Positions 313-45,902 of a stretch of 64,000 nt of DNA are shown one piece after another. The translations under genes were made by a program, and so were the position numbers. The DNA comes from an uncultured Sutterellaceae bacterium (GTDB lineage Bacteria; Pseudomonadota; Gammaproteobacteria; Burkholderiales; Burkholderiaceae_F): assembly GCA_902797695.1 (NCBI GenBank), contig CADBTW010000065.1, positions 48,087 to 112,086 of the forward strand, written 5' to 3'. Position 1 is the first letter of the stretch. Every line of letters starts with the position of its first letter. The notes under the pieces were generated by a model, which worked only from the letters and a program-made list of their open reading frames with translations, was not told the origin of the DNA and made no database searches.

Positions 313-2010
<1,698 letters not shown>

Positions 2011-2058
2011 GAAAAAAAGTTGGCACGCCCGGGCGCGTTATTGCGCGGGGGCGGAGTT
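2011..2058 (-). promoter_or_regulatory. rpsA leader without Shine-Dalgarno, GC hairpin
   Basis: The 30 bases before the rpsA ATG contain no purine-rich ribosome site. Instead there is a run of seven T residues next to the ATG and, just upstream, a self-complementary GCCCGGGC core inside near-symmetric GCGC/GTGC arms. S1 genes are known to be autoregulated through structured leaders lacking a normal Shine-Dalgarno; that this leader does so is inference. Confidence 0.45.
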
Positions 2059-2096
2059 AAAAAAATAAACGCAGAAGGCGGGCACCCCGCCCGCCT
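2059..2096 (-). terminator. Terminator or attenuator between cmk and rpsA
   Basis: On the minus strand, GGCGGGC pairs with GCCCGCC across a 5-base loop, followed after about 10 bases by seven consecutive T residues. The distance from stem to T-run makes partial termination more likely than full termination. Confidence 0.5.
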
Positions 2097-2160
2097 GCTG
2101 CAACCGGTACTGCAGAAAAATTTTATTTTCCTCTATTTTCAGGATCTCTGCACGGCGCTT

Positions 2161-2838
2161 CTAGCGCTTCGTGCATTCAAGCCACCAGTAGAGGACTTTT
2201 TCAACGGTTTCCTCGATGGTAAGGAACGAGGAGTCGAGGATGCGGGCTCCTTCAGCAGGAGCGAGAGGCGCGTGCGCGCGGCGCATGTCCCGAAGGTCGC
2301 GTTCCTTCATCTCGGAAACAAGGTCGCTAAGTTTAACATCAAGCCCCTTTTCGATCAATTGCTTATAGCGGCGATGCGCGCGGGCCTCCGCGCTCGCGGT
2401 GAGGAAGACCTTGAGAGGCGCGTCGGGGAAGATGACCGAACCCATGTCCCGGCCATCGGCGACGAGGCCCGGAGCCCTCCGGGCGTTCTTCTCAAGCTCC
2501 GCGAGGGCGTCACGGACTGAGGAGATGACAGCCGCGCGCGAAGCGGCCTGGCCGACTTCCTCGGTCCGGATCGCGGCCGTGATGTCCTCGGTACCCAGCG
2601 TCACGCGGCCGCCGGCGAACCGGGGCTTGATCGCCATCGCGTGGGCGGTGACCGCGGCCATGTCGTCCAGCGGCACGTTGTTCCTCAGGCAGACGAGGCC
2701 GACAACGCGGTAAAGCGCGCCGGAGTCGAGGTAGTGGAAGCCGAGCGCCTCCGCCACCCGGGAAGCGACAGTGCCCTTGCCGCTCGCCGTAGGACCGTCA
2801 ATAGTAATGACGGGGACCTTCCCATTCAGCTCTGCCAT
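2161..2838 (-). CDS. cmk: Cytidylate kinase
   Basis: Transfers phosphate from ATP to CMP or dCMP, feeding the CTP and dCTP pools in the cytosol. The 225-residue protein has the P-loop DGPTASGKGT at residues 14-23 and the YLDSGALYR segment that follows it in Cmk. It also has a DGRDMG motif near residue 130 and a C-terminal REXRDXRR-type lid, seen here as KERDLRDMRR. Length equals the usual 220-230. Start ATG at 2836-2838 has AAGGGG seven bases upstream. It lies 27 bases after aroA and upstream of rpsA, the standard betaproteobacterial order. Confidence 0.97.
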   Translation of the reverse strand: MAELNGKVPVITIDGPTASGKGTVASRVAEALGFHYLDSGALYRVVGLVCLRNNVPLDDMAAVTAHAMAIKPRFAGGRVTLGTEDITAAIRTEEVGQAASRAAVISSVRDALAELEKNARRAPGLVADGRDMGSVIFPDAPLKVFLTASAEARAHRRYKQLIEKGLDVKLSDLVSEMKERDLRDMRRAHAPLAPAEGARILDSSFLTIEETVEKVLYWWLECTKR

Positions 2839-2865
2839 CAGAAAACCCCTTGAAAGTAATGAAAC

Positions 2866-4200
2866 CTAACGGCCTTCCGGCGGCATATCCAATTCCACCA
2901 GCCCCGAAAGCCTTTCAAAATAGTCCGGGAACGTCTTCGAGACGCATCCCGGGTCAAGCACCTCGACCTCGACTCCGCAACAGGCGGCGAGCGAGAGGCT
3001 CATGGCCATACGGTGGTCATTGTAAGTTCGAACCCGTGCCGGTTGAAGGGTTACGGGAGGAATTATCCGGAGATAATCCCGCCCTGACGCTACCCTTGCG
3101 CCGAATTTCGCGAGCTCGGCCTCCATCGCGGCGATCCGGTCCGTTTCCTTCACGCGCCAGGACCCGATCCCTGTGAGAACGGTTTCCCCTTCGGCGCCGA
3201 GTGCCATGGCGGCGAGCGTCATCGCCGCATCGGGGATGGCGGTGCAGTCCGCCTCGATCCCCCGGAGCCGTCCGGACTCAGGCGCGCTCGCCTCTATCCA
3301 GTCGGATCCCCATTTGACCCTTGCGCCCATCCGCTCGATCACCCGGGCGAACGCCGTGTCGCCCTGAATCGAATCGAGGCCCGCCCCGGTCACGCGGACC
3401 GGCCCCCCGGCGAGCGCTCCGAGCGCGAGGAAGTACGAGGCGCCGGATGCGTCGCCCTCAACCGAGAAGGGAGACGAGAGGCGGTACGAGCCATGAGGCA
3501 CGGAAAAGGCCCCGTCCTTCTCAACGACCCTGACGCCGAACCGCTCCATCAGCTTCAGCGTCATCGCGACGTAGGGCCGGGAAATCAGCTCGCCCTCCAC
3601 GCGGATCCGCATTCCGCCTTCACCAGAGTAAACAGGGGCGGACATGAGAAGCGAAGTGAGGAACTGGCTTGACACAGAGCCCGAGACGCTGCACTCCTCC
3701 GGCCCCCCCCCGCGAACCCTCTCCCCGACCTCGATCGGAAAATATCCCTCGCGCCCGGTGCACCGGATCGTGCAGCCGAGCATCCGGAGCGCCGCGAGGA
3801 GATCCCCGAGCGGTCGCTCGCGCATGCGGGCAACGCCGTCAAGCCTGTAGCTGCCGCCCTGAAGGGCGAGAGCCGCGGTAAGAGGCCGCGCAGCGGTTCC
3901 CGCGTTCCCGAGGAAAATGTCCGCATTGCGAACCGGAAAGCGGCCGCCGCAGCCTGTCACGGCAAAGGATGTCGGGTCGCCGGGATCCTCCAGCACCTCA
4001 ACGCCGAGCGTCCGCAGCGCGTCAAGCATCCGCCCGGTGTCGTCCGCGCGGAGCACGCCTTGCAGGCGGCACGTCCCTTCAGAAAGCGCAGCGAGGAGCA
4101 GCGCACGGTTGGAAATGGACTTCGAGCCCGGAAGCCTGACGGTTCCCCGGGCGGATCGGATCGGAAAAAGCTTCAGGCAGTCCTGGTCTTCCAGCATCAT
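2866..4200 (-). CDS. aroA: 3-phosphoshikimate 1-carboxyvinyltransferase (EPSP synthase)
   Basis: Joins phosphoenolpyruvate to shikimate-3-phosphate, the sixth step of the shikimate pathway. The 444-residue protein shows LPGSKSISNR near residue 23, the PEP-binding GNAGTAARPLTAAL near residue 98 and RERPLGDLL. It also has SGSVSSQFLTSLLMSAP, a C-terminal KETDR, and NDHRMAMS. The NAGTAxRP form is typical of class I enzymes, which are normally glyphosate sensitive. The first ATG overlaps the tyrA stop by four bases (ATGA), so the two are probably translationally coupled; a second ATG follows immediately. Confidence 0.97.
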   Translation of the reverse strand: MMLEDQDCLKLFPIRSARGTVRLPGSKSISNRALLLAALSEGTCRLQGVLRADDTGRMLDALRTLGVEVLEDPGDPTSFAVTGCGGRFPVRNADIFLGNAGTAARPLTAALALQGGSYRLDGVARMRERPLGDLLAALRMLGCTIRCTGREGYFPIEVGERVRGGGPEECSVSGSVSSQFLTSLLMSAPVYSGEGGMRIRVEGELISRPYVAMTLKLMERFGVRVVEKDGAFSVPHGSYRLSSPFSVEGDASGASYFLALGALAGGPVRVTGAGLDSIQGDTAFARVIERMGARVKWGSDWIEASAPESGRLRGIEADCTAIPDAAMTLAAMALGAEGETVLTGIGSWRVKETDRIAAMEAELAKFGARVASGRDYLRIIPPVTLQPARVRTYNDHRMAMSLSLAACCGVEVEVLDPGCVSKTFPDYFERLSGLVELDMPPEGR

Positions 4201-12320: not shown

Positions 12321-14952
12321 GTTCCCTCACCCAGCCCTCGACGGATTCGAGAGCCTTCGGGAGAGCGGCGGCGTCCGAGCCGCCCGCCATGGCGAAGTCC
12401 GGCTTCCCGCCGCCCTTCCCGCCGACCTGCGCCGCGACGAACTTAACGAGTTCGCCCGCCTTCAGGCCACGCTTCACGAGGTCGGGGGTAAGCCCTGCGC
12501 AGATCTGCAGCTTCTCGCCGCCGGTCGCGGCAAGCACCACCACGGCGCTCTGGAGCTTGTCACGGACCTTGTCGGCCGTGTCGCGCAGCGCCTTCGCGTC
12601 CGCTCCCTTCATGGCGACGGCAAGGACCTTGATCCCGGCGACATCCTTCGCCTTCTCGGAGAGCCCCGCACCGGCCTGGGTGGCGAGCTTCTCCTGAAGC
12701 GATTCCACTTCCTTCTGCAGCTCGCGGATCTGGTCCTGGGTCGAAGCCACCTTCTCGACGAGCTCGGACTCCTTCACGCCGCGGAAGTCGGCAAGAAGCC
12801 CGGAAACGAGCGCGGCCTTTTCCTGGGTGAACCTGAGGGCGTTCATGCCGGTCACGGCCTCGATGCGGCGGACACCGGCAGAAATGCCGGCTTCGGACAC
12901 GATCTTGAAGCTGCCGATGTCGCCCGTGCGGGCAACGTGCGTGCCGCCGCAGAGCTCCTTCGAGCTGCCGGCGGTCACGACGCGGACCTCGGTGCCGTAC
13001 TTTTCGCCGAACTCCATTTCGGCTCCGGTTTTCTTCGCTTCCTCGATCGGCATCACCTCGGTCTGCACCAGGACGTTCGCGAGGATTTCCTCGTTCACGA
13101 GCCGCTCGACCTCGGCGATCTGCTCCTTCGTGAGCGGATGGTCGCTCGTGAAGTCGAAGCGGGTCACTTCCGGGGTCTGCAGGCTGCCCTTCTGGGCAAC
13201 GGCTTTCCCGAGGACGTCGCGAAGGGCCTTGTGCATCATGTGGGTCGCGGTGTGGTTGCGGGCGATCGCGGCGCGGCGGCCGGCGTCGACCGCCACGGTG
13301 AACACGTCGCCGAGCTTCACCGTGCCCTCATGGATGTGGACGGAGTGGCCGAAGACGGACTTCTTGATCGTGATCGTGTCGAGGATGTTCGCGAGGGTCG
13401 TCGCGTTCTCGGCGACGCCCTGGTCGCCGACCTGGCCGCCCATTTCAGCGTAGCAGGGGGTCTTGTCGAAGACGATGACGGCATCGTCGCCCGCCTCGGC
13501 TTCCTTCACGTCGGTCCCGTTCTTATAGAGGCCGATCACCTTGCAGCCTTCGGTCTTCAGCTCGCCGTAGCCGCGGAACTCGTTCGCCGGACCGTTGTAG
13601 ACGAGGCCCGCGGCGATCTTGAACTTAGCGGAAGCGCGGGCCTTCGCCCTCTGCTCCTCCATCTCACGGTCGAACGCCTCGGTGTCGACCTTGATCCCCT
13701 TCTCGCGGCAGACGTCAGCCGTGAGGTCGGCAGGGAAGCCGAACGTGTCGTGGAGCTTGAAGACCACGCTGCCGTCGAGCACGCCGTTCGTCGTCTTCGC
13801 GATGGCGTCCTCAAGGATCTCCATGCCCTTCGAAAGCGTGAGGAAGAAGCGTTCCTCCTCGGCCTTGATCACGGCGGCGATGTTCGGGTGGTGCAGCTCG
13901 GGATAGACGTCGCCCATTTCGGCCGCGAGCGGCGCGACGAGCGTGTAGAAGAACGGCTCGCGGGCGCCGAGCTTGTAGCCGTGGCGGATCGCCCGGCGGC
14001 AGATGCGGCGGAGCACGTAGGCGCGGCCCTCGTTTCCGGGGACGACGCCGTCGGCGATCGCGAACGAGCAGGCGCGGATGTGGTCGGCGATCACCTTGAG
14101 GGACGGGGTTCCGGGAACGACGTCCTTCGCGCCGGCCTTCTCGACCGCTTCCTTCGCCGCCTTCATGAGGTTCTTGAAGAGGTCGATGTCGTAGTTCGTC
14201 GGGACGTCCTGAATCACGGACGCGATGCGCTCAAGCCCCATGCCCGTATCGATGTTCGGGTGGGGGAGGCGGTTCATCTTGCCGGAAGCGTCGCGGTTGA
14301 ACTGCGTGAAAACGAGGTTCCACACCTCGAGGTACCGGTCGCCGTCCTCGTCCTTGCTTCCCGGAGGGCCGCCCTGGACGGACGGGCCGCGGTCGAAGAA
14401 GATCTCGGAGCACGGGCCGCAGGGGCCGGTGTCGCCCATCATCCAGAAGTTGTCGGACATGTACTTCCCGCCCTTGTTGTCGCCAATGCGGACAATGCGC
14501 TCAGCGGGAACGCCGATCTTCTTGTTCCAGATGTCGTAGGCTTCGTCGTCGTCGATGTAGACCGTCACCCAAAGGCGCTCGGCAGGCAGCTCGAGCACCT
14601 TGGTGAGGAATTCCCAGGCCCACGGAATCGCCTCTTCCTTGAAGTAGTCGCCGAAGCTGAAGTTCCCCAGCATCTCGAAGAACGTGTGGTGGCGGGCGGT
14701 GTAGCCGACGTTGTCGAGGTCGTTGTGCTTGCCGCCTGCGCGGATGCACTTCTGGCTCGTCGTCGCGCGGGTGTAGGCGCGCTTCTCGATTCCGAGGTAG
14801 CAGTTCTTGAACTGGTTCATGCCCGCGTTCGTGAAGAGGAGCGTGGGATCGTCTTCCGGAACAACAGGGCTCGAAGCCACAATCGTGCAGCCCTTGCTGC
14901 GGAAGAACTGGAGATAGGTATTCCTGATCTCCGAAGCTGTCATGTATCTCAT
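12310..14952 (-). CDS. alaS: Alanine--tRNA ligase
   Basis: Charges tRNA-Ala. The 880-residue protein has the class II catalytic core (residues 1 to about 250: [54 protein letters not shown]). The middle tRNA-recognition region comes next, then an editing domain with the zinc-type [11 protein letters not shown] and [11 protein letters not shown] motifs. The C-terminal DHHA1/C-Ala domain is rich in glycine ([19 protein letters not shown]). Length is standard (about 875). The first ATG is used here; the ATG three codons later (MTASEIRN) matches most AlaRS starts and is equally possible. The leader of about 80 bases has a small GCGGA/TCCGC hairpin. Confidence 0.98.
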
Positions 14953-42014: not shown

Positions 42015-42644
42015 CTACTGCTGCAGGACTTCGGCGCCCTTCGGGATCCGGAACTCGAATGCTCCGGCTGGAATGGCCGGATTTTTCTCGACGCCGGAAA
42101 GCCTGAGGGTCGTCGTCTGCCCGAAGTTGTCCCGCAGGACCATCTCCCCGGGAAGCCCGTTCTGGAAACCGATCAGGATCCGGGTGAAGCTCGAATCACG
42201 GACCTTCGGGACCGCCTCGATCCATTCGAGTCCCGACTCGGCCCTGCCTTCCTTCACGTCGAAATCCCGGCGGAAATCGTTGTTCCCGAAGAGGATCGCG
42301 GCCGGGCTTGCCGGCATCGCGCCGGCGAGGCTCCGAACGGTCACCTGCCTAAGGTCGGGATCCCAGACATAGACCTTCTTGCCGTTGCTCACGATTTCCT
42401 GCCGGTAGGGCTTCTCGTAGCTCCAGAAAAACTTTCCGGGCCGCTCGAAGCGGAAGGTCCCGGACATGGCCTGGGAGGCGGCCTTTCCCTTCCTGTCAAC
42501 GGTCGTCTGGGTGAACGCCCCGGAAGCGGACCTCGTGCCCTTCAGGAAGGACGCGAGCTGGCCTACGCCGCTCGCCCAGGCTTCAGACGGCAGGTAGACG
42601 AGCGCCGCAAGGGCGGCAACCTGGGCGACAAGGCTTTTCAGCAT
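42015..42644 (-). CDS. lolA: Outer-membrane lipoprotein carrier protein LolA
   Basis: Periplasmic chaperone that ferries lipoproteins from LolCDE to LolB. 209 residues with a signal peptide (LKSLVAQVAALAALVYLPSEAWA, cleavage about residue 24). The LolA fold follows, with LASFLKGTRSASGAFTQT, SGTFRFERPGKFFWSYEKPYRQEIVSNGKKVYVWDPDLRQV and a C-terminal FEFRIPKGAEVL. Length is standard. The ATG is inside the last codons of the upstream FtsK-like gene (seven-base overlap), so expression is coupled. ftsK-lolA adjacency is common in proteobacteria; rarA, which often follows, is absent. Confidence 0.95.
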   Translation of the reverse strand: MLKSLVAQVAALAALVYLPSEAWASGVGQLASFLKGTRSASGAFTQTTVDRKGKAASQAMSGTFRFERPGKFFWSYEKPYRQEIVSNGKKVYVWDPDLRQVTVRSLAGAMPASPAAILFGNNDFRRDFDVKEGRAESGLEWIEAVPKVRDSSFTRILIGFQNGLPGEMVLRDNFGQTTTLRLSGVEKNPAIPAGAFEFRIPKGAEVLQQ

Positions 42645-43408
42645 GTTCCTCGATCCTCGGAAAACTGGTTATCCCGCGCAATCCTAACCCTAACTGCAGG
42701 GACCTTCCCGGCCGCGTTCCTGTACAGGGCCTCGTCCGGGCCAAGGCTTTCCGCGCCGAGCACCATCAGGGCCATGACCGAGGACCTGCGGTCCGGGAGC
42801 CGCAGGGCCACCCGGTCCTGGATCTCGGCTTTCAGCCGTGCCGGAAGGGCCTGCGGCGTCGGATCAGTGGCGAGGACGAGAGGGAGCATCCCGCAGGCGC
42901 GGCCGTACCGCGCCGCACCGCATAACCGGTCAAGGAACCGGAGACCAAGGCTACCGGCGGCGGGCAGGTCCTCCAGCACGAAGAGCATGAAGGGCAGCAG
43001 CGGTTTTCCCGAAGACTCGGCGAGGGCGTTGTAGTGGGGCAGGTTCGTCGAACGGACTGAGCGCATCACGTCAAACCGCCTCGCCTGCTCGAGCCTGAAG
43101 GCTTCGAGCGCGGCGGCGATTCCCTCGCTCTTTCCCTCGCTCCAGGTCCCTGGCTCGGCACCGATCCAAGATGGCGCCGTCCTGCCGGCCCAGATCACCT
43201 GCGCGGAACCGGCCCCGGAGGATCGTAGGACGCTTCTGGCAAGCGCCGAGCCAAGGCGGAGCAGTTCGCTCCTGTCAGAGCCCGCGGCTATGACCCCGTG
43301 GCTTTCCTCAAGCTTCAACCGCAAGGGAATTCCGCCGGGGCCTTCTCCGATTGTCATCCGGAAGGCATAGCGATCGAGGTCGATTTGTTCCGGTTCCATC
43401 ACCGTCAT
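42638..43408 (-). CDS. Degenerate FtsK/SpoIIIE motor-domain paralogue (putative pseudo-ATPase)
   Basis: 256 residues, not a named family. By eye it aligns along its length with the FtsK motor of the gene just upstream: RFDVMRSVRSTNLPHYN with RYAVMRRVGVKRFEAYN, FMLFVLEDLPAAG with YIVAVVDELADL, and GMLPLVLATDPTP with GIHLILATQRPST. The stretch after it corresponds to the FtsK arginine-rich VTRYDSQVIMGEPGAENL region. The Walker A loop is lost: residues 43-50 read GSDRSELL where FtsK has GTTGSGKS. There is no membrane or gamma domain. It is intact, starts with ATG, lies 79 bases after ftsK and overlaps lolA. A role as an FtsK partner or regulator is inference. Confidence 0.75.
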   Translation of the reverse strand: MTVMEPEQIDLDRYAFRMTIGEGPGGIPLRLKLEESHGVIAAGSDRSELLRLGSALARSVLRSSGAGSAQVIWAGRTAPSWIGAEPGTWSEGKSEGIAAALEAFRLEQARRFDVMRSVRSTNLPHYNALAESSGKPLLPFMLFVLEDLPAAGSLGLRFLDRLCGAARYGRACGMLPLVLATDPTPQALPARLKAEIQDRVALRLPDRRSSVMALMVLGAESLGPDEALYRNAAGKVPAVRVRIARDNQFSEDRGTC

Positions 43409-43455
43409 TATTTCCAGCTTCCTTGAATGCAGAAAGACAAAGGTTCATTGCGGCC

Positions 43456-43479
43456 GGAAAGGGGACTTGGCCCCTTTCC
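43456..43479 (-). other. Hairpin between ftsK and the FtsK-like gene
   Basis: GGAAAGGGG and CCCCTTTCC, a perfect nine-base stem with a six-base loop, not followed by a T-run. It may protect mRNA ends or mark a processing site rather than terminate. Confidence 0.5.
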
Positions 43480-43487
43480 CGCACGGG

Positions 43488-45902
43488 CTACTCGTGTGAG
43501 GTCGGCGCGAGGATCGTCCGCTTTCCCGACCCGTCAGGCGGAGAGACGATCCCTGCCTTTTCCATCGCCTCGATCAGGTTGGCGGCCCGGTTGTAGCCAA
43601 TCGAAAGATGGCGCTGGACAGAGGAAATCGTGGGCCGCTTCGTGGAAAGGACAATCTCGACCGCCTTGTCGTAAAGCGCGTCCGATTCGCCCCCGGCACG
43701 ATCCGACTGCTCTGCCTCCTCGGGCTTCTCGAGGATTTCATCCTCATAGTCGGGCTCGCCCTTCTTCTTCAGTTCCGCCACGACGTTCTCAACCTCGCGG
43801 TCGGAAACGTAGCAGCCCTGGAGCCTCACCATCGAGCTCATGCCGGGCACCCGGAAAAGCATGTCGCCGTTTCCGATCAGGTTCTCGGCCCCCGGCTCCC
43901 CCATGATCACCTGGGAGTCGTAGCGCGTCACGACCTGGAAGGAAATGTGGGCGGGAATGTTCGCCTTGATGAGCGGGGTCACGACGTCAGTGCTCGGACG
44001 CTGCGTCGCGAGAATCAGGTGAATGCCTGCGGCGCGGGCTTTCTGGGCAAGGCTTGTGATGAGGACTTCCACCTCACGGCGGCTTCCGGCGAGGATCAGG
44101 TCCGCGAGCTCGTCCACGACCGCAACGATGTAGGGCCAGGGCCTGAGGTACGACGGCTCGTCAGGCGTGGTCGAGAAGGGGTCCGTGAGCGGCGTTCCCA
44201 GGTCTTCCGCCTCCCTTACCCTCTCGTTGTACGCCTCGAAGCGCTTGACGCCGACACGCCTCATGACGGCGTACCGGTGGTTCATTTCACGGGTGAGCCA
44301 CTGCAGGGCGTTCACCGCCTTGCTCATGTCGGTGACCACCTGGCAGAGGAGGTTCGGAATGCCTTCGTAAGGCGAGAATTCGACCATCTTCGGGTCGATC
44401 ATCACGAACCGGACCTCGTCAGGCGTCGTCCGGTAAAGGATCGAGAGGATCATCGCGTTGATGCCGACCGACTTCCCCGAACCCGTGGTTCCCGCCACGA
44501 GAAGATGGGGCATTTTCGCGAGGTCGACGACATACGGGTTCCCCGCGATGTCCTTGCCCAGCGCGACCGTGAGCTTCGATTTCGCCTTCGCATAGGCGTC
44601 TGAAGCAAGGATTTCGGAAATCCTCACGGTCTGTCGGACGGCGCTCGGCATTTCAAGCCCCATGCAGGTGGTTCCGGGAAGGCTCATCACCACGCGCAGG
44701 CTCGGCACGCCCAGCGCTCTTGCGAGGTCGTCAGCCACATCGGCAATCTTCGCCCCCTTCACGCCTTCGCCCGGCTGGATCTCGAACTGGGTGATCACCG
44801 GGCCGGGGCGGGCGGAAAGGACCGTCGCCTCGATGCCGAAGCTCTTCAGCTTCGACTCGATGAGGCGGCAGGTGAGGCCAAGGGCGTCTTCGTCAACCGA
44901 ATCGATTCCGGGATCCGGGGGCTCAAGGATGGAAAGCGGAAACTGCGGGCCGGTCTCGGAAAGGCTCCTCACCGGCGGCTTCTCTATCAGGAGCTTTTCC
45001 GCCTCGGTCATTTCAGGGACGTGGGGCTTTTCAGGCTCCTTCTCGCCGGCATCCATCGCCTCGGCGTCAGGGGTCCTCTGCCCGGGAGCCGCCTTCTCAA
45101 TGCTCACTTCGTGCTGCGGGGGCAGCGGCTCGACGCGCTTCTCCTCTCGAACCCGTTCGCCGATCCTGCGATCCTCGGCTTCCTCCTCGTGCTCTGATCC
45201 CCAGTGAAGAACGGAGTCGATCACCGTACCGACCCTTTCGCACAGGTTGAGCCAGGAGAAGCGGAACACGAGGGAAAGGCCGAAAATCAGCAGGATGAGG
45301 AATACCGCGATCGACGGATAAACCCCGAGGACCTGCACCGGGGCCCTGCAGAAGAAATGCCCGAGAAGGCCGCCGGGGCCCGCAGGCATCAGGCCGTAGA
45401 ACCCGAAGTCGAGGAAGCGCTCAAGACACGAGGACCCGAGCATCAGGGCGACGAAACCGACAAGCGAGAGCAGCCAGGAGAGGCCTCCCTCCCGGCGGAA
45501 CTCGGCCGAGGCGAGCCGGGTCGGGAAGGTGCGCGAGAAAAGTGCGAAGGCACCCGCGACGACCGGCCACCAGGAGGAGGCTCCGAACGCGTAGATGAGG
45601 GCGTCGGCGAGCCAGGCTCCGGGCCTTCCCAGCCAGTTCCGGACCTCAGCCACGTTCATCGAGACGGAGAAGCCGGGGTCTGCCGGGCTGTACGAGCCGA
45701 GCGCCGCCGCGAGAAGCAGTAGCGCCGCGAGCCCGGCGAGCCACAGCACCGCGAACCCCGCGCGGACCAGGAACCGCCTGATGAAGGAGAAATCCCGCTT
45801 CTTCACTGGTTCGGGCGGCCGGAGAGACGGTCGGATGTATGGCTGGCCGATCGCCGTGCGGCGGCCCCTTGAGGAAGTTCGGGTTGCTGTTTTCTGAGAC
45901 AT
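43488..45902 (-). CDS. ftsK: DNA translocase FtsK
   Basis: Septum-located translocase that pumps chromosome ends and activates XerCD at dif. 804 residues: an arginine-rich cytoplasmic start, several membrane segments between about residues 45 and 215, a short acidic/proline linker (about 220-330), and the alpha/beta motor. Walker A is GTTGSGKS at 471-478 and the Walker B region contains YIVAVVDELADL. The C-terminal winged-helix gamma domain (about 740-804: RPTISSVQRHLSIGYNRAANLIEAME) reads KOPS. The linker is much shorter than in E. coli (1329 residues in total), as in many betaproteobacteria. ATG at 45900-45902; divergent from trxB. Confidence 0.97.
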   Translation of the reverse strand: MSQKTATRTSSRGRRTAIGQPYIRPSLRPPEPVKKRDFSFIRRFLVRAGFAVLWLAGLAALLLLAAALGSYSPADPGFSVSMNVAEVRNWLGRPGAWLADALIYAFGASSWWPVVAGAFALFSRTFPTRLASAEFRREGGLSWLLSLVGFVALMLGSSCLERFLDFGFYGLMPAGPGGLLGHFFCRAPVQVLGVYPSIAVFLILLIFGLSLVFRFSWLNLCERVGTVIDSVLHWGSEHEEEAEDRRIGERVREEKRVEPLPPQHEVSIEKAAPGQRTPDAEAMDAGEKEPEKPHVPEMTEAEKLLIEKPPVRSLSETGPQFPLSILEPPDPGIDSVDEDALGLTCRLIESKLKSFGIEATVLSARPGPVITQFEIQPGEGVKGAKIADVADDLARALGVPSLRVVMSLPGTTCMGLEMPSAVRQTVRISEILASDAYAKAKSKLTVALGKDIAGNPYVVDLAKMPHLLVAGTTGSGKSVGINAMILSILYRTTPDEVRFVMIDPKMVEFSPYEGIPNLLCQVVTDMSKAVNALQWLTREMNHRYAVMRRVGVKRFEAYNERVREAEDLGTPLTDPFSTTPDEPSYLRPWPYIVAVVDELADLILAGSRREVEVLITSLAQKARAAGIHLILATQRPSTDVVTPLIKANIPAHISFQVVTRYDSQVIMGEPGAENLIGNGDMLFRVPGMSSMVRLQGCYVSDREVENVVAELKKKGEPDYEDEILEKPEEAEQSDRAGGESDALYDKAVEIVLSTKRPTISSVQRHLSIGYNRAANLIEAMEKAGIVSPPDGSGKRTILAPTSHE

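Follow-up and report, generated by a model that had tools for sequence, protein, structure and literature searches.

A predicted pseudo-ATPase related to the FtsK motor, encoded next to ftsK in Mesosutterella, and its possible role as a regulator of the pump

Introduction

FtsK is a very fast DNA pump that links cell division to chromosome segregation, and the limits on its assembly and firing in the cell have mostly been ascribed to its position at the septum and to DNA sequence. Here we describe ORF X (hereafter X), a protein of 256 residues encoded directly behind ftsK in a stretch of 64,000 nucleotides from an uncultured Sutterellaceae bacterium (contig CADBTW010000065.1; the whole stretch is called the window). 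This protein, which is found in Mesosutterella, a genus of gut bacteria, is probably a regulator and not a pump.

The closest described systems are the motors of the FtsK/SpoIIIE family, with whose beta domain (PF01580) X shares the fold, the order of the motifs, the arginine finger R620, K643 and a basic residue at the position of K657, and the gene of X adjoins ftsK itself. Unlike these motors, X holds neither Walker A nor R632, F695 and an insert of ~22 residues preceding Walker B, its Walker B motif is altered, and the alpha, gamma, linker and membrane domains are missing; without an ATP site, DNA translocation by X is not expected. In the translocating FtsK ring, the R620 residue of one subunit reaches the nucleotide of its neighbour, as described in excerpts of PMC7321959. 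FtsK/SpoIIIE rings run with non-consecutive inactive subunits; in SpoIIIE, isolated ones are tolerated and two in a row make the ring pause, according to excerpts of PMC4728128, where the work of Crozat et al. (2010) on FtsK is reported as well.

A precedent for FtsK-like domains with degenerate ATP motifs is provided by the EccC/EssC proteins of type VII secretion, whose D3 domains exhibit a degenerated Walker B and no distinguishable arginine finger in the excerpts of PMC9436818. However, those degenerate domains are fused in one chain, whereas X is a separate protein where the finger is kept and the P-loop is lost. X does not belong to the EccC proteins either, being a single-domain protein with a best EccCa score of 36.1 bits versus a cut-off of 509.15. 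Within the same bacterial family, an FtsK/EccC-like protein of 307 residues from the related genus g8 is also a small single-domain member of the FtsK superfamily, although it holds an intact Walker A (GMTGSGKS), lies at another locus and matches the X profile weakly (21 bits). More distantly, and by analogy from the title of the structure entry, a RAD51 paralogue capping a RAD51 filament (9q29_G) would be a RecA fold that ends an active RecA-fold assembly, although it belongs to a different family and gives a weak Foldseek match (E 3.7e-4, template modelling (TM) score 0.46).

A stand-alone relative of the FtsK motor domain

The initial annotation of the window, made by eye, had aligned X with the motor of the adjacent FtsK, and the searches bear this homology out. 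BLASTP of X against that FtsK yields an E-value (E) of 7e-5 in the C-terminal half, with 45/156 identical residues (29% over 156 columns), and all the matches reported by eye are present (RRFDVMRSV..HYN against HRYAVMRRV..AYN, E146-D147 at the Walker B strand, and LATDPTP against LATQRPS). A profile built from the five X sequences matches the solved motors of Escherichia coli and Pseudomonas aeruginosa FtsK with E 1.2e-14 to 4.1e-14 (best chain 2ius, E 1.2e-14), in two stretches over positions 15-230 of 249, and takes in the N-terminal half of X. The X of the window alone, searched at thresholds up to E 10, matches no model of Pfam or NCBIfam, while the other four match PF01580 at 17.8 to 23.8 bits, slightly below the 24-bit cut-off; the initial annotation was right in that neither Pfam nor NCBIfam holds a named family for this protein.

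AlphaFold2 predictions, with five models each and resting on four X sequences only, gave a best model with a predicted local distance difference test score (pLDDT) of 63.8 and a predicted TM score (pTM) of 0.68 for the X of the window (pLDDT of the other four, 34.5-57.3), and of 76.5 and 0.77 for that of M. porci (others, 57.2-75.8). When these two models were compared by Foldseek with the Protein Data Bank (PDB), the top 11 and the top 16 matches, respectively, were all FtsK motors, with best E of 2.8e-11 and 8.6e-11 and query-normalised TM scores (TMq) of 0.65-0.76.

Members of the X family are 242-256 residues long and consist of a single domain. The Pfam search of X found no 4TM, alpha or gamma domain, and the highest 19-residue Kyte-Doolittle mean reaches 1.0-1.4 versus 2.6 in FtsK, that is, no membrane-like segment, in agreement with the claim that X lacks a membrane and a KOPS-reading (gamma) domain. 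Judged by its sequence, X is akin to the ATPase (beta) domain of FtsK but stands alone, the membrane, alpha and gamma parts being absent.

Residues lost and kept

Residues are numbered after P. aeruginosa FtsK, with landmarks from excerpts of PMC9410874 and PMC7321959, and the comparison set comprised 53 FtsKs from Mesosutterella and its relatives plus the reference (54 in total). The FtsK P-loop (466-473) is invariant in 54/54, and of its residues G466 alone survives in every X protein. The reported loss of Walker A consequently holds throughout the family: SDRSELL takes the place of TTGSGKS in the window, and the equivalents of K472 are L, L, L, R and R. At Walker B, the D595 position is occupied by E in 5/5 X, and that of E596 by D in four and N in one; the missing F695 region corresponds to the adenine side. 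The ATP site appears to be ruined, and the use of ATP seems lost.

What has been kept is found elsewhere. R170 of X aligns with the arginine finger R620, an arginine in 5/5 X and 54/54 FtsKs, and lies within the longest invariant run of the family (Table 1), the length of which was reached by none of 20000 column shuffles. In these alignments the invariant arginine-finger stretch is the most telling feature of X. The sensor (T630/Q631) is kept in part, the DNA-gripping R632 of loop II is lost in 5/5 X, and R661 is lost as well, this position being Q in Mesosutterella FtsK. The K657 position is R in all five X and also in the FtsKs of all five Mesosutterella genomes. Furthermore, X holds invariants of its own that replace invariant or nearly invariant FtsK residues, such as RYG for QKA (617-619) and HG for PH (460-461).

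Distribution and selection

X is present with an intact frame in all five Mesosutterella genomes, at 40-52% identity to the copy of the window. A search of 61 relatives with this copy matched 49 at E 0.01, five of these being X, and a profile search (A1) of 67 genomes from 18 genera of the family matched 60 at E 0.001; five of them are again X, and the rest correspond to the g8 stand-alone protein or to FtsK itself, in a few cases as frames truncated at a contig end. Among 299 genomes of the phylum, 82 gave a match at E 1e-10, X was found only in the window's own genome, and all non-X frames among the matches listed have at least 431 residues. A scan of genome contigs retrieved three X loci, all from Mesosutterella/Dakarella. 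Of the 18 genera of the family that were searched, only one has X.

The g8 stand-alone matches are frames of 311-374 residues in 7/9 g8 genomes. The 307-residue protein (L027:1378-2301, minus strand; L030:895-1818, plus strand) lies between metallophosphoesterase-like and phosphatase-like genes, named by eye, and its best models are EccCa (9.5e-21) and PF01580 (1.5e-16).

A viral origin of X was also considered and discarded, as the scan of IMG/VR with the X family returned 10 pattern-matching stretches, none encoding a relative. The X of M. porci matched 51 plasmid and 18 phage records at E up to 1; the matches listed (15 plasmid, 10 phage) are EccC, FtsK, FtsK-like or unannotated records, and none of the plasmid and phage records covers 80% of this protein in one place. 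Among predicted viral structures (BFVD), the best matches reach TMq up to 0.71, several of them unnamed and some called FtsK.

The initial annotation had argued from the intact frame against a decaying fragment. A decaying duplicate of the 3' end of ftsK, kept by chance, would fit the stem branches of several changes per site (median end branch, 0.1) and the ratio of nonsynonymous to synonymous change (dN/dS, Nei-Gojobori), which in the two close pairs is higher for X (0.082 and 0.118) than for ftsK (0.003 and 0.030, computed over the 478-483 codons of its C-terminal part). Such a relic is nevertheless very improbable, as it does not account for frames that are whole in 5/5 genomes at the identities given above, nor for dN/dS values that fall within the range of lolA in the same pairs (0.037, 0.166). 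X evolves faster than FtsK, under a constraint similar to that on lolA. The annotation had also stated that a missing match to FtsK by hidden Markov model, or a gene restricted to one genome under relaxed selection, would speak against a conserved pseudo-ATPase; a profile match exists, and the gene is found in five genomes. With a predicted fold that is kept, catalytic residues lost in all members and purifying selection, X would qualify as a pseudo-ATPase homologue, and we regard it as a genus-specific predicted pseudo-ATPase encoded by a selected gene, not a relic.

Possible functions

Among the functions considered, we favour, tentatively and with a confidence somewhat short of even, one in which this diverged and dead beta domain docks on FtsK via its arginine-finger face, and caps or brakes the assembly or firing of the pump. 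X would act on FtsK itself, as its place next to ftsK and the retained finger stretch suggest: the finger face would meet the ATP-site face of a motor domain of FtsK and supply a trans arginine to the ATP site of this neighbour. X would complete that site and yet be unable to pass the cycle on, because it lacks R632 and an alpha domain and would not be expected to bind ATP. Such a one-sided partner might act as a cap or brake that limits the FtsK ring until the right moment of division, and it is this set of features (finger kept, ATP site ruined, neither alpha domain nor R632) that favours a cap or brake. Either sign of regulation is mechanically possible, since a SpoIIIE ring copes with isolated inactive subunits and pauses when two of them are consecutive. 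The binding to FtsK, the use of the arginine-finger face and the negative sign are all three inferred, while the ruined ATP site and the selection come from the sequence.

Several observations weigh against a cap or brake. The arginine helix is also in the core of the fold, so its invariance may be partly structural, and the five genomes with X amount to no more than about three independent lineages. Nor has the second trans residue, Arg548, been retained: X has T or N there (Mesosutterella FtsK itself has K at this position). The ATP-site positions show no significant excess of losses over the others (1/19 kept versus 13/54, Fisher p 0.096, with position groups chosen by the analyst). FtsK from Mesosutterella (43488-45902 in the window) carries R614S, R649H, K606R, H512N and L673I where its relatives are otherwise conserved, but this is no clear sign of co-evolution, because these unusual changes are fewer (five) than those in g8 (seven). 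Finally, X appears to have diverged far from FtsK, as no more than 14/73 of the positions invariant in FtsK are retained by all five X proteins.

The remaining 59 of the 73 positions, together with the invariant residues that X has acquired where FtsK is invariant or nearly so for others, would fit an X that keeps its fold as a scaffold or a DNA- or protein-binding module with another partner (the divisome, a Xer recombinase or DNA), not acting through the ATP site of FtsK. The equivalents of K643 and K657 are still basic, so that contact with DNA is conceivable. A role apart from FtsK is a serious possibility, nearly as likely as a cap or brake, although it leaves unexplained why X stands directly after ftsK in 5/5 genomes and why the arginine finger has been kept with its A621/G623 neighbours.

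X could also be a non-hydrolysing subunit of mixed FtsK rings, tuning their speed or stalling, as the initial annotation had suggested. Rings that work with non-consecutive inactive subunits (excerpts of PMC4728128) would allow it, and X keeps R620 and two basic DNA-loop positions. On the other hand, membership of the ring is made less likely by the missing alpha domain, which speaks against an ordinary ring position; X also lacks a gamma or membrane part, and the loss of loop II R632 in every X points in the same direction. We consider this alternative unlikely, and retain the cap or brake on FtsK as the reading that we prefer.

Locus and gene order

The features of the locus are collected in Table 1.

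Table 1. Features of the ftsK-X-lolA locus; positions refer to the window, and residue numbers without further mention to X.
Feature	Positions	Strand	Remarks
ORF X, 256-residue stand-alone FtsK beta-domain homologue without Walker A	42638..43408	-	
ftsK, 804 residues, complete	43488..45902	-	4TM, alpha, RecA-like and gamma domains all above Pfam cut-offs
lolA	42015..42644	-	7-nt overlap with X; homologous ORFs after ftsK in 16/20 other-genus loci
ftsK-X gap, 79 nt	43409..43487	-	AAGGAAG Shine-Dalgarno-like stretch (by eye) and 9-bp hairpin
Degenerate P-loop region, residues 37-51 (HGVIAAGSDRSELLR)	43256..43300	-	Lysine lost; only the G466-equivalent glycine kept
Residues 107-128 (EQARRFDVMRSVRSTNLPHYNA), conserved block aligned to the Arg548-holding FtsK region	43025..43090	-	
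E146-D147, altered Walker B acids (FtsK D595-E596)	42968..42973	-	
Residues 165-176 (AARYGRACGMLP), longest invariant run of the X family (12 residues)	42881..42916	-	
Residues 179-185, LATDPTP, sensor/loop II remnant	42854..42874	-	DNA-gripping Arg632 lost
K193, FtsK K643 equivalent (loop II, lesser DNA contact)	42830..42832	-	Kept in 5/5
R207-R208	42785..42790	-	R207 aligned with FtsK K657 (loop I DNA contact)

The gene order on the minus strand is ftsK, gap, X and lolA, the last being a putative lolA that is named after the initial annotation. In 5/5 Mesosutterella genomes, X lies on the strand of ftsK, directly downstream of it, and between ftsK and lolA. The hairpin in the ftsK-X gap (AAAGGGG..CCCCTTT) is not stronger than shuffles in the three species compared (z -1.14, -1.61 and 0.13). 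The nucleotides shared by X and lolA in the window are ATGCTGA; the overlap is of 4 nt in two relatives, and in the other two lolA has its first ATG 15 nt past the stop of X.

The 20 loci compared come from 16 other genera. In 14 of the 16 with a lolA homologue downstream of ftsK, the two genes lie no more than about 0.35 kb apart, and in six of these they overlap by 4 nt (ORFs as printed). Two of the other four loci have a contig end inside ftsK, and in the two from g13 the sequence covered downstream of ftsK (1.3 and 3.2 kb) holds no lolA. The adjacency of ftsK and lolA is usual in the other genera examined, so that X appears to lie within an older ftsK-lolA pair and to have lolA as a neighbour mostly through inherited gene order, which is nothing special. 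The coupling to lolA that the initial annotation had emphasized therefore stands as an overlap in the window, but not as a feature of the family, since it is absent in 2/5 genomes.

Other layouts were also observed. In genus g5, about 2 kb separate ftsK from lolA in both loci (L084, about 1086-3112; L085, about 1101-3257). The ftsK of G084 (L087 1-1107 / L061) consists of two frames (235 + 130 residues), split near the end of the beta domain, perhaps by a sequencing error. Elsewhere in the genome of the window, two weak FtsK_SpoIIIE-like matches below the cut-off occur at G000:C34:7145-7231 and 13814-13903, in frames of 380 and 928 residues.

Origin

The simplest idea on the origin of X is a duplication of ftsK. 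The tree places X on very long branches and, at its best, outside the FtsKs with weak support (51/94). In the approximately unbiased (AU) test, given these long branches, a grouping of X with Mesosutterella FtsK is not rejected (p 0.298), and one with all true FtsKs gives p 0.265. Of the description of X as a paralogue of the adjacent FtsK, the kinship with the FtsK motor stands, and descent from that very gene is compatible with the test.

Alternatively, X might derive from another protein of the FtsK superfamily (an EccC-like protein of type VII secretion or a conjugative coupling protein) that landed beside ftsK, an origin that we find rather unlikely and that can hold with any functional reading of X. 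The X of M. porci scores better with the NCBIfam EccCa model (3.2e-9) than with that of FtsK (3.1e-6), and its top plasmid matches among those listed are EccCa proteins from Streptomyces (E 4e-9). By eye, the residues HG and RxGR of X seem to resemble those of EccC. However, the X of M. multiformis prefers FtsK (1.5e-5) over EccCa (0.003), the profile search of the PDB and both Foldseek searches put FtsK first, and the tree gives X no placement.

The X profile was further scored against 103 FtsK frames, several from one genome. All but two of them outscore the best EccC (35.4 bits; EccC range, 26-35), and 100/103 outscore the best of the other FtsK-superfamily proteins tried (37.9 bits), so that only two and three frames, respectively, fall on the side of an EccC-like origin; these exceptions are L098, L107 and L078, the last of which is truncated at the end of its contig. 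The FtsKs of Mesosutterella score low (41-49 bits), the maximum (81.2) being reached in a distant family of the phylum. Within the family, the best-scoring FtsK is one from g5.

Significance

Among the titles and abstract starts listed in searches of open-licence literature (on degenerate FtsK domains, FtsK paralogues and regulators, Mesosutterella and Sutterellaceae), none describes such a protein. X may be the first case of an FtsK motor turned into a dedicated protein regulator, one that would donate an arginine finger, could not fire, and would cap or brake the pump; we put this forward with reserve. If true, X would offer a natural tool to observe the effect of a single trans-only subunit on the FtsK ring, and the theme of pseudo-ATPases regulating ATPases would extend to RecA-like DNA pumps.
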